Shown one piece after another: positions 36,902-39,060 of a stretch of 64,000 nucleotides of DNA. Source of the DNA: Erythrobacter sp. WG (GTDB taxonomy: Bacteria > Pseudomonadota > Alphaproteobacteria > Sphingomonadales > Sphingomonadaceae); the NCBI RefSeq assembly GCF_026586795.1, contig NZ_JAPFGY010000002.1:1-64000 (forward strand), given 5' to 3'. Within the stretch, counting starts at the first letter, position 1, and every line of letters begins with the position of its first letter. The translations under genes were made by a program, and so were the position numbers. The notes under the pieces were generated by a model that saw only the letters and a list, made by a program, of their open reading frames with translations, was not told the origin of the DNA and made no database searches.

Positions 36902-38065
36902 TTACATCGACCTCGCGATCAGCATCTTCATGATCTCGTTCGACCCGCCATAGATCCGCGCGATGCGGGTGTCGCGGTACATCCGGGCGATGGCGTAATC
37001 GTTGATGTAGCCCGCCCCGCCGTGGAATTGCAGGCACTTGTCGACCACCTCCGACTGGAGTTCGGTCACCCAGTACTTCGCCATGCTCGCGGTCGCCACG
37101 TCGAGCTTGCCTTCGAGCAGCTTGGCGATGCAGTCGTTGACGAACACCCGCGCCGCCGTGCCGCGCGCCTTGAGGTCGGCGAGGGTGAACTGGGTGTTCT
37201 GGAAGTCCCAGATCGTCTTGCCGAAGGCCTTGCGATTTTTGACATATTCGACCGTCACGTCGAGCGCCTTCTCGATTCCGGTGATGGCGTTCATGGCGAT
37301 CACCAGGCGCTCCTGTGGCAGCTCGCCCATCAGCTGGTAGAACCCGCGCCCCTCGATCCCGCCGAGGAGATTGTCGGCCGGAATGAACACGTTGTCGAAG
37401 AACAACTCGCTCGTGTCCTGCGCGTCCAGCCCGATCTTGTCGAGCTTCTTGCCGCGCTGGAAGCCTTCTGCCCCCTCGGTCTCGAGCAGCAGTAGCGAGA
37501 TGCCCTTGGCGCCCTCGCTGGGATCGGTCTTGGCGACGACGATGATGAAGTCGGCCAATTGCCCGTTCGAGATCCAGGTTTTCGAGCCATTCAGCCGGTA
37601 GCCGTTGCCGTCCTTCAACGCCGTGGTCTTGATCGACTGGAGGTCGCTCCCCGCATCGGGCTCGCTCATCGCGATGGCGCTGACGAGGTCGCCGGTCACG
37701 AGGCGCGGCAGGTATTTTTTCTTTTGTTCCTCAGTGCCATGGCGCACCAGATAGGGCAGGATAATGGTGTTGTGGAGCGAGGCGCCGAAGCCCTCGACCC
37801 CGTATTTCGCCTGCTGGTCGATCACCACCATGTCGTGCCGGAAGTCCCCGCCGTGGCCGCCATATTCGGTGGGCACCGACACGCCGAGCAGACCCGCCGC
37901 CCCGGCCTCGCGCCAGAACTCGCGTTCGACCTGGCCGTCCTCGCGCCACTTGAGGACGCGCTTTTCCGGGGCGTGCTGCTGGTAGAACTTGCCGACCGCG
38001 TCGGCGAAAATGGCGATTTCCTCGTCTTCCATGAAGGCGGGCTGGGGCACTTCGATGACAGGCAT
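36902..38065 (-). CDS. Acyl-CoA dehydrogenase, long-chain/isovaleryl type
   Basis: 387 residues from ATG 38065 with AGGAGAG upstream. It removes two hydrogens from an acyl-CoA and passes electrons to ETF via FAD. Family motifs: 'AIAMSEPDAGSDLQSIKTTA', 'WISNGQLADFIIVVAKTD', 'ELPQERLVIAMNAITG', 'RKAFGKTIWDFQNTQFTLADLK' and 'QFHGGAGYINDYAIARMYRDTRIARIYGGSNEIMKMLIAR' (in pieces). The usual medium-chain catalytic Glu in 'YEGT' is Gly here ('YGGS'), as in long-chain dehydrogenases and the isovaleryl type, where the base sits on another helix, near 'QER'. A parS-like site lies 14 bases upstream of the start codon. Confidence 0.93.
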   Translation of the reverse strand: MPVIEVPQPAFMEDEEIAIFADAVGKFYQQHAPEKRVLKWREDGQVEREFWREAGAAGLLGVSVPTEYGGHGGDFRHDMVVIDQQAKYGVEGFGASLHNTIILPYLVRHGTEEQKKKYLPRLVTGDLVSAIAMSEPDAGSDLQSIKTTALKDGNGYRLNGSKTWISNGQLADFIIVVAKTDPSEGAKGISLLLLETEGAEGFQRGKKLDKIGLDAQDTSELFFDNVFIPADNLLGGIEGRGFYQLMGELPQERLVIAMNAITGIEKALDVTVEYVKNRKAFGKTIWDFQNTQFTLADLKARGTAARVFVNDCIAKLLEGKLDVATASMAKYWVTELQSEVVDKCLQFHGGAGYINDYAIARMYRDTRIARIYGGSNEIMKMLIARSM

Positions 38066-38078
38066 CGGTCTCTCCTGA

Positions 38079-38094
38079 TGTTTCACGTGAAACA
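38079..38094. promoter_or_regulatory. Perfect 16-bp parS-like ParB-binding site
   Basis: The sequence TGTTTCACGTGAAACA is its own reverse complement and matches the chromosomal parS consensus known from Caulobacter and other bacteria. It lies between the crotonase gene end and the acyl-CoA dehydrogenase start, inside the leader of the latter. No other full copy was seen in the window. parA and parB are not in the window. Confidence 0.85.
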
Positions 38095-38165
38095 ATGGGT
38101 CAAAGGGGTGGCTGGCGGGGGGCAAGCACGCACTTTGCGCGGGCAAGCCCCCTGCAAGAACGGAC

Positions 38166-38939
38166 TTAGCGGCCGGTCCAGTTGGGCTTGCGCTTCTCGG
38201 CGAAGGCGGCGGCGCCCTCGCGCGCGTCGTGGCTGACGAACACCGGGCCGATCAGCGCGCCCTGCTTGGCGTAACGCTCCTCCATCGCCCAGCCGCGCGA
38301 TTCCTTGACGATCTGCTTGGACACCCGCACCGCAAGCGGGCCGTTCGCCGCGATCCGCGCCGCGAGCGCCTTCGCCGCGTCGAGCGCCGGGCCTTCGGTC
38401 ACCTCGTTGATGAGGCCGAGGCTGTAGGCGCGCGCGGCGTCGATGAAGTCGCCGGTCAGCGCCAGCTCCATCGCGATCCGTTCGGGGATCTGGTCGGGCA
38501 GCATCATCACGCCCCCCGCCGCCGCCACCAGGCCGCGCTTCACTTCGGGGATGCCGAACTTCGCGCCCGCATTCGCCACCACCAGATCGCAGGCGATCAT
38601 CAGCTCGAGGCCTCCGGCGAGTGCATAGCCCTCGACCGCGGCGATCAGCGGCTTCTTGGGCGGGGCCTGCACCACGCCGCCGAAACCCCGGCCTTCCACG
38701 GTGGGCGATTCGCCGCGCAGGAAGCCCTTCAGATCCATCCCCGAACAGAAGGTCCCGCCCGCGCCGGTGAGGATGCCGACCCTGAGGTCGTCCTCGGCGT
38801 CGAGCCGGTCCATCGCCGCCGCGATCCCCTCGGCCGCGGCCTTGCTCATGGCGTTCTTGGCATCGGGGCGGTTGATGGTGACGATGAGGACGCCGTCCTC
38901 GACGTCTGTCAGCACTTCGGGGGCGGCGGTCTCGCTCAC
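38166..38939 (-). CDS. Enoyl-CoA hydratase/isomerase family (crotonase)
   Basis: 257 residues from a GTG at 38939 with a clear AGGAGAG; an upstream start has no ribosome-binding site. Crotonase fold: 'VLIVTINRPDAKNAMSKA', 'VGILTGAGGTFCSGMDLKGF' (oxyanion hole), 'KPLIAAVEGYALAGGLELMIACDLVVA' (Glu in GGLEL) and 'KFGIPEVKRGLVAAAGGVMMLPDQIP' (second Glu). These two glutamates are the hydratase catalytic pair. It hydrates 2-enoyl-CoA in beta-oxidation; exact chain specificity unknown. The acyl-CoA dehydrogenase lies downstream on the same strand (100 bases), and the thiolase is divergent. Confidence 0.92.
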   Translation of the reverse strand: MSETAAPEVLTDVEDGVLIVTINRPDAKNAMSKAAAEGIAAAMDRLDAEDDLRVGILTGAGGTFCSGMDLKGFLRGESPTVEGRGFGGVVQAPPKKPLIAAVEGYALAGGLELMIACDLVVANAGAKFGIPEVKRGLVAAAGGVMMLPDQIPERIAMELALTGDFIDAARAYSLGLINEVTEGPALDAAKALAARIAANGPLAVRVSKQIVKESRGWAMEERYAKQGALIGPVFVSHDAREGAAAFAEKRKPNWTGR

Positions 38940-39060
38940 GGCTCTCTCTCCTGCTCGAAAATGTGATTGCATTTTGAAACGCAATTCTTGTGCGATTGGT
39001 GCAGTGGGTTTACGCAGGCGTCAACCGCAATTTCGCGCAAAGACGAGAGAGGATCATTCC

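Follow-up and report, generated by a model that had tools for sequence, protein, structure and literature searches.

A parS-type palindrome upstream of an Erythrobacter acyl-CoA dehydrogenase gene is probably one of a chromosome-wide set of ParB sites

The 16-bp palindrome TGTTTCACGTGAAACA at 38079-38094 of the window (by which we mean the whole 64,000-nt stretch of DNA that was analysed) is probably a ParB loading site, parS, and would form one element of a chromosome-wide set used by a single ParB, in composite with an array of repeats on one side. This reading draws on features legible in the DNA itself: the number of the sites, their spread, their orthologous positions, their joint respelling in a relative, the phased one-sided array, placement at the 3' ends of genes, and a single ParB clade. 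The palindrome, which is assigned to neither strand and matches the 16-mer exactly, is the sole match in the window at ≤3 mismatches (0.06 expected from shuffles), and we take it to fit the parS consensus. The first-pass annotation, which described it as a base-for-base parS match that was unlikely to arise by chance, was right on both counts: the site is one of 69 in the genome, and the genome-wide mismatch spectrum given below excludes chance.

The palindrome sits within a 100-bp gap between two co-directional genes. On one side is an acyl-CoA dehydrogenase gene (36902-38065, minus strand; Pfam Acyl-CoA_dh_N, E = 4e-27, Acyl-CoA_dh_M, 2e-26, and Acyl-CoA_dh_1, 3e-46), and on the other its upstream neighbour, an enoyl-CoA hydratase gene (38166-38984, minus strand; Pfam ECH_1, E = 2e-49; beginning at 38939 in the crude gene call), whose frame ends at 38166. 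Direct reading of the sequence places 13 bases, with an AGGAG among them, between the palindrome and the dehydrogenase ATG at 38065. The site had earlier been placed 14 bases before the start codon of a metabolic gene, which holds for the gene and its start, not for the distance. A degenerate, weak, one-sided array of 11-bp repeats (38095-38165, plus strand) occupies the rest of the gap, as far as the hydratase stop codon, and the 3' end of the hydratase gene faces it. With three units and a matrix score of 22.4 on the right side of the palindrome, and 7.6 on the left, this array is a weak positive; a stricter array scan of the whole window reported none, the one at this site included.

In the genome that holds the window (G000, 3.31 Mb in 58 contigs), 69 parS-type copies were found at ≤2 mismatches, 60 of them exact, and a count of the core GTTYCACGTGRAAC also gave 69. 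Within 967 kb, which were chosen around sites rather than sampled at random and contain the 60 exact and eight of the nine other copies, there were 60 exact matches, eight with one mismatch, none with two, one with three and seven with four, whereas four permuted palindromes matched nowhere in the same 967 kb at ≤2 mismatches, with 0-1 matches at three mismatches and 4-9 matches at four. Because this spectrum is bimodal when set against the permuted palindromes, and because of the 69 copies in the whole genome, chance is excluded genome-wide. The one-mismatch copies read TGTTCCACGTGAAACA in seven cases and its reverse complement, TGTTTCACGTGGAACA, in one. The start of contig C26 (L029:1-433) and the end of contig C34 (L036:2977-3408) match over 433 bp at 96%, with parS and array on both, and may represent a single locus that was counted twice, or else two strain variants that were both assembled.

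Across 41 genomes of the genus, the core count was 2-4 in 19, eight in two and 11-69 in 20. Among 298 genomes of the family, eight of which belong to the same genus, the remaining 290 had at most 17 sites (0-6 in 283 of them), and among 397 genomes of the phylum, two of which belong to the same genus, the remaining 395 had at most 12. In a set of 20 named genomes, obtained from the 22 best loci minus L104 and L116, we counted 38 sites in LE19-388.1B, 36 in HGW-Alphaproteobacteria-7, 16 in MSM4, 15 in Erythrobacter oryzae COR-2 and 2-8 in the 16 others. Between six and 17 parS-type sites also occur in other genera of the family, namely g68 (G127, G191), g90 (G155, G212, G259, G295, G323) and g35 (G094). 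These are possibly independent, smaller expansions, and GGGTCT was absent beside the sites of G191.

An eight-site cluster lies beside parAB-mnmG in G000 (contig C57), among genes that we take from their translations to encode ParA, ParB, RsmG and MnmG, and there are matching places in the complete relatives G003 and G022. The eight parS of G000 fall within 4.8 kb around mnmG (L053:17165-19769 and L058:499-1967); five are inside called frames, and three parS are found 69-159 bp upstream of mnmG. G003, a single contig of 3,090,363 bp, has 57 sites, of which the eight at 950,136-954,963 correspond by alignment to the C57 cluster, and G022 (2,979,257 bp) has 56, with its eight-site cluster at 418,349-423,160. 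GC skew in G003, taken in 20-kb samples outside 0-0.77 Mb, is weak: it is mostly negative below 0.96 Mb, mostly positive at 0.98-2.64 Mb, where several samples, the one at 2.53 Mb included, are slightly negative, and turns negative again at 2.67 Mb and beyond. The dispersed sites cover both arms evenly in G003 and G022; in five bins from origin to terminus, with the terminus estimated from weak GC skew and set at 2.655 Mb and 2.017 Mb, respectively, they number 11, 11, 11, 9 and 7 in G003 (49 sites) and 12, 10, 10, 9 and 7 in G022.

This distribution bears on a narrower form of our preferred reading, strict nucleoid occlusion, in which ParB (perhaps via MipZ) would block division over the chromosome and the terminus would be free of sites. 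The terminus of G003, as estimated from the weak GC skew, does fall within a 302-kb gap that is the largest site-free one in that genome (P = 0.036 for such a length at the terminus point), yet as a maximum such a gap is not unusual (P = 0.30). In G022, which is related to G003 and does not count as independent, the gap over the terminus is an unremarkable 174 kb (P = 0.21), and a larger one of 210 kb lies away from the terminus. We regard strict occlusion as rather unlikely.

Most dispersed sites carry, on one side of parS, a G-rich array of 11-bp repeats in helical phase. A motif-free test for a period of 11 (identity at lags 11 and 22, with shuffles, z ≥3 on either side) was passed by 45 of 60 dispersed sites in G000, 30 of 49 in G003 and 20 of 28 in G022, by 1 of 300 random positions and by 0 of 24 cluster sites in the three genomes. 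When the side was picked by G minus C alone, identity was higher on the G-rich side than on the other at lag 11 (0.43 vs 0.28 for the 60 sites of G000, 0.37 vs 0.29 for the 49 of G003 and 0.36 vs 0.30 for the 28 of G022) and at lag 22 (0.40 vs 0.28, 0.34 vs 0.27 and 0.34 vs 0.29); at lag 33 it was raised in G000 and G003, not in G022. The repeated unit approximates GGGG(T/G)C(T/A)(G/A)(G/A)nn, its frequencies being biased upward by the counting of only those units that match at least 4 of 5 core positions, and the spacing of GGNCWR is most often exactly 11 bp. Relative to parS, 209 of 253, 125 of 150 and 66 of 79 GGNCWR units (G000, G003 and G022) fall in three neighbouring phases. By a matrix (score ≥20, array start ≤130 bp from parS) that was written after the sites had been seen, and whose random null has an upper tail contaminated by arrays (95%, 10.2; 99%, 35.0), 51 of 60 sites in G000, 42 of 49 in G003 and 0 of 16 cluster sites are array-bearing. 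The lag-identity and period-11 tests are free of both the matrix bias and the unit-frequency bias. Two sites of G000 that lie 37 bp apart have one array in common.

A replication-polar signal like KOPS was considered and rejected, the arrays at the 42 array sites of G003 pointing with the fork at 22 and against it at 20 (P = 0.88). The paired unit GGGTCT-N5-GGGTCT occurs in 10-154 copies in 12 of the 20 many-site genomes of the genus, in 0-2 copies in the other eight, and in 0-1 copies in the 21 genomes with 2-8 sites (reversed control, 0-5). This last figure, together with the strict scan of the window, led us to discard the idea of the array as a genome-wide filler.

The pair is absent from G035, yet of the 20 sites read there 5 show the 11-bp period in the same test, their unit being (C/G)C(A/G)(A/G)AG, spaced by 11 or 22 in nine of ten cases; CAAAG-type arrays stand beside dispersed parS at L323, L324, L328 and L332 of that genome, the unit in G000 being of the GGGGTCTGG type. 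In G039, 1 of 11 sites read passes. The results from these two genomes imply that the period and the one-sidedness outlast the sequence of the unit, and that dispersal does not need the array. Arrays are also found in G000 with no parS-like sequence just upstream (C57:25642-25726, C57:49131, C22:146504, C56:115892 and others), some of them overlapping called genes. Eleven array loci were chosen among the matches listed; at the ten of them that were scanned, 120 bp of G-strand sequence upstream of the array held no parS-like sequence at <6 mismatches, although at one, on C10, a parS lies at a distance of some 260 bp. Seven array loci of G025 were picked for lacking a canonical site (L349-L355): at six of them stands a parS with a single core mismatch, which differs from locus to locus, and at the seventh there is none, a pattern that suggests decay or turnover of dispersed sites in this larger genome.

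Many of the positions are old. Any position with a site ≤400 bp from the projected one was counted as shared; the comparison covered every site of G003 and all but one of G000, and the counts are lower bounds. By this measure, 34 of the 60 dispersed sites of G000 have a counterpart in G003, and 30 of 49 in G003, 13 of 20 read in G035 and 6 of 11 read in G039 have one in G000; for 26 of the 60 no G003 counterpart was found. Nucleotide identity at positions shared by G000 and G003 is roughly 70-90%. In G022, 53 of the 56 sites, including seven of the eight in the cluster, read GTTCCACGTGGAAC. The dispersed sites examined there number 28; at 16 of them G000 has a site in the same position, and in 15 of the 16 both half-sites differ from those of G000. 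The window site is among those respelled: its orthologues lie at 1,424,893 in G003, with GGGTCTAAACGGGGTCT at 1424931-1424947, and at 771,769 in G022, spelled GTTCCACGTGGAAC. Since cluster and dispersed sites have been respelled jointly in G022, whatever selects the spelling reads both. Most simply, the protein reading both, the window site included, would be ParB, because ParAB is encoded at the cluster. GC mutation bias could help the respelling, but alone it is not enough for 53 of 56 symmetrical sites.

These data also weigh on a rival in which a selfish or neutral REP- or MITE-like repeat carrying parS was spread by copying, with ParB binding incidental or serving tolerance. The range of 11 to 69 copies among many-site genomes, the decayed parS beside arrays in G025 and the array loci of G000 that have no parS are all consistent with such a repeat. 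Copying does not explain the respelling in G022 at old shared positions, however, and further evidence against it comes from the 34 of 60 positions shared at such identity and from the arrays of G035, with the same period and another unit. Copies of a mobile repeat should be alike beyond the functional motif; when 2-kb flanks of G000 sites were compared, in all pairs but those headed by sites of the C57 cluster or at C57:73 kb, a single alignment exceeded 250 bp, and this was the 433-bp contig-end overlap of C26 and C34. Shorter likeness between arrays is present. A spreading repeat thus seems unlikely to account for the set.

In G000 and G003 together, 79 of 93 array sites lie in intergenic gaps and the other 14 inside called frames, as judged by crude gene calls. 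The gap statistics apply to the intergenic array-bearing sites, array-less sites and those inside frames being left out: 39 of the 79 are in convergent gaps, 34 in co-directional and 6 in divergent ones, compared with 133, 478 and 227, respectively, in a background of 838 gaps of 60-600 bp (Fisher P = 7.5e-11 for convergent enrichment and 3.9e-5 for divergent depletion). At 50 of the 79, parS is next to the 3' end of a gene, at a median distance of 18 bp.

Placement at 3' ends is what would be expected if parS-plus-array were mainly a transcription barrier, acting through G-rich RNA, a G-quadruplex or an R-loop, with ParB secondary, and canonical G4 motifs are indeed found on the G-richer side of 30/60, 15/49 and 11/28 dispersed sites (shuffle means 9.1, 2.0 and 0.6). 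Half or more of the sites nevertheless have no G4 motif, which led us to reject the G-quadruplex as the whole story, the mostly exact 11-bp spacing points to duplex DNA, and the CAAAG-type arrays of G035 keep the period with few G runs; a barrier of this kind is very unlikely to be the main function.

Gene context similarly argues against an operator for a transcription factor that recognises the same palindrome, such as a beta-oxidation repressor. The position of the window site, ahead of the dehydrogenase start codon, would suit one. An operator is expected at promoters, however, and the array sites avoid divergent gaps and prefer convergent gaps and gene 3' ends; cluster and dispersed sites, moreover, have been respelled together. 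We rejected the beta-oxidation operator, and consider an operator of any such factor highly improbable. The first-pass proposal that ParB could affect the dehydrogenase gene survives as a possible effect specific to this site, the preferences of the array-bearing set being other than those of gene control. The chance that the palindrome is an ordinary origin-proximal parS is negligible in spite of its exact consensus and the presence of ParAB in the genome. We rejected it on three observations: the 69 sites are distributed over many contigs, the cluster of origin type lies away from this site, on C57, and, G000 itself being a draft, the orthologues of the window site are separated from the cluster by 0.47 Mb in G003 and by 0.35 Mb in G022. 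The first-pass annotation, right about the motif, was therefore wrong in the positional conclusion that the window may be origin-proximal, and the genome-wide search for the 16-mer that it had itself proposed returned the result it had named as contrary, many copies scattered round the chromosome.

The ParB of G000, encoded at L053:15328-16281, contains the motifs LGKGLGALLGE, GERRWRA and KSRSHVAN and shares 80-84% identity with the ParB proteins of Erythrobacter oryzae COR-2, the Erythrobacter MAG MSM4 and the Porphyrobacter MAG LE19-388.1B. A full-length ParB was found in 30 of the 31 genus genomes searched (of 41), G007 (23 sites, ~230 contigs) giving weak matches only. No second full-length ParB of this family was found in G000 or G003; G003 has one match, and in G000 the only match besides its ParB is a weak one, at 31%, within a frame of 664 aa. 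In an alignment and a midpoint-rooted tree of 40 proteins (30 from the genus and ten from named relatives), a single clade (100/99) unites the 20 ParB whose genomes have 13-69 sites, and its sister comes from a genome with 3 sites. Seven alignment columns separate these 20 from the 20 others, three of them in the helix-turn-helix, where the many-site proteins have changed from A/S to V, from F/I/L/T to M/V and from L to M/V. Most many-site ParB read EGMIQVDIA...NMMRL(M/V) and their relatives EGMTQAEIA...N(L/I/F/T)QRLL, with G022 (EGMTQVEIA, NMHRLM) and HGW-7 (EGMTQVDVA, NMQRLM) intermediate in part. With Caulobacter residue numbers placed by hand on an alignment to 6t1f, many-site ParB keep the equivalents of R173 and G201, which are in the parS-specific state according to the excerpted ParB/Noc study (PMC7383237), and one of the changed positions corresponds to Caulobacter 179, which that study describes as permissive. 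From the protein sequences we infer that the helix-turn-helix changes may have caused the expansion of sites.

We propose that in one Erythrobacter/Porphyrobacter clade ParB, after changes in its helix-turn-helix, would have taken up tens of parS on both arms besides the origin cluster, and that in the high-count genomes most of these dispersed sites would have turned composite, with parS and 11-bp repeats on one side in near-fixed helical phase. ParB presumably binds the dispersed sites in the cell, and a second protein, or phased bent DNA, might use the array for one-sided loading or sliding of ParB clamps. The whole set could then provide chromosome-wide anchoring or nucleoid organisation, like Noc or nucleoid-retained ParB, rather than act as a gene switch, and the window site would hold a ParB patch, flanked by two CoA genes of fatty-acid type, that affects the acyl-CoA dehydrogenase no more than incidentally. 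Counted against our preferred reading are the incomplete retention of sites, the decay in G025, dispersal without arrays, the arrays of G000 without parS and the weak array in the window. According to PMC5815017, an extra parS in Caulobacter is disfavoured at mid-arm but tolerated near ter and in a zone of ~500 kb round ori, so something must differ in this clade; given that permissive zone, the window site is less extreme than the mid-arm sites. A bolder and tentative version, which we hold to be possible rather than probable, is that of a distributed centromere, in which one ParB would act on about 50-69 parS, mostly composite, a second, array-bound protein would give direction, the barrier to mid-arm sites would have been passed by the helix-turn-helix changes without a Noc paralogue, and the unit would have diverged (GGGGTCTGG-type in G000, CAAAG-type in G035) with the 11-bp period kept.

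As a natural experiment, this clade has raised its sites more than tenfold over both arms, while same-genus relatives kept two to four, and it pairs candidate ParB substitutions on one branch with a new, attached cis element. What confines centromeres to the origin becomes a testable question, and the clade may show how Noc-like function can arise with no gene being duplicated. In the literature searched, mostly outside subscription journals, we found no report of chromosome-wide parS.

The closest known system is the chromosomal ParABS of Caulobacter and Bacillus, which has the same palindrome, parAB beside rsmG-mnmG, with the eight-site cluster here at that place, and the same ParB motifs. 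It differs from the set described here, in which as many as 69 sites are spread along the entire chromosome, in that published parS counts reach 20-23 and lie near the origin in the excerpt of PMC7333895, which also raises the question of why parS stays clustered; parS is almost always near oriC in the part of PMC7383237 consulted. Noc and its NBS sites in Firmicutes resemble the present case in the many dispersed sites of a ParB-family protein, and differ in that the spellings here are those of parS and that a separate Noc paralogue was not found in G000 or G003. We know of no array of the 11-bp type beside NBS. These sites are widely spread except near ter (PMC7383237, as excerpted). In Pseudomonas aeruginosa, according to the excerpted text of PMC10419367, ParB occupies many scattered heptanucleotide half-parS, which are proposed to keep it on the nucleoid. 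The likeness lies in a ParB family with many scattered sites, in our case predicted ones; here, unlike there, the sites are full palindromes, over half of them at positions shared between species and most with an array. Finally, parC of plasmid R1 is an iteron centromere whose 11-bp repeats are bound by ParR. It shares with the arrays described here direct repeats one helical turn apart, a resemblance recognised from the 11-bp repeat alone, whereas in this clade the repeats are attached to type I parS and scattered over the chromosome.
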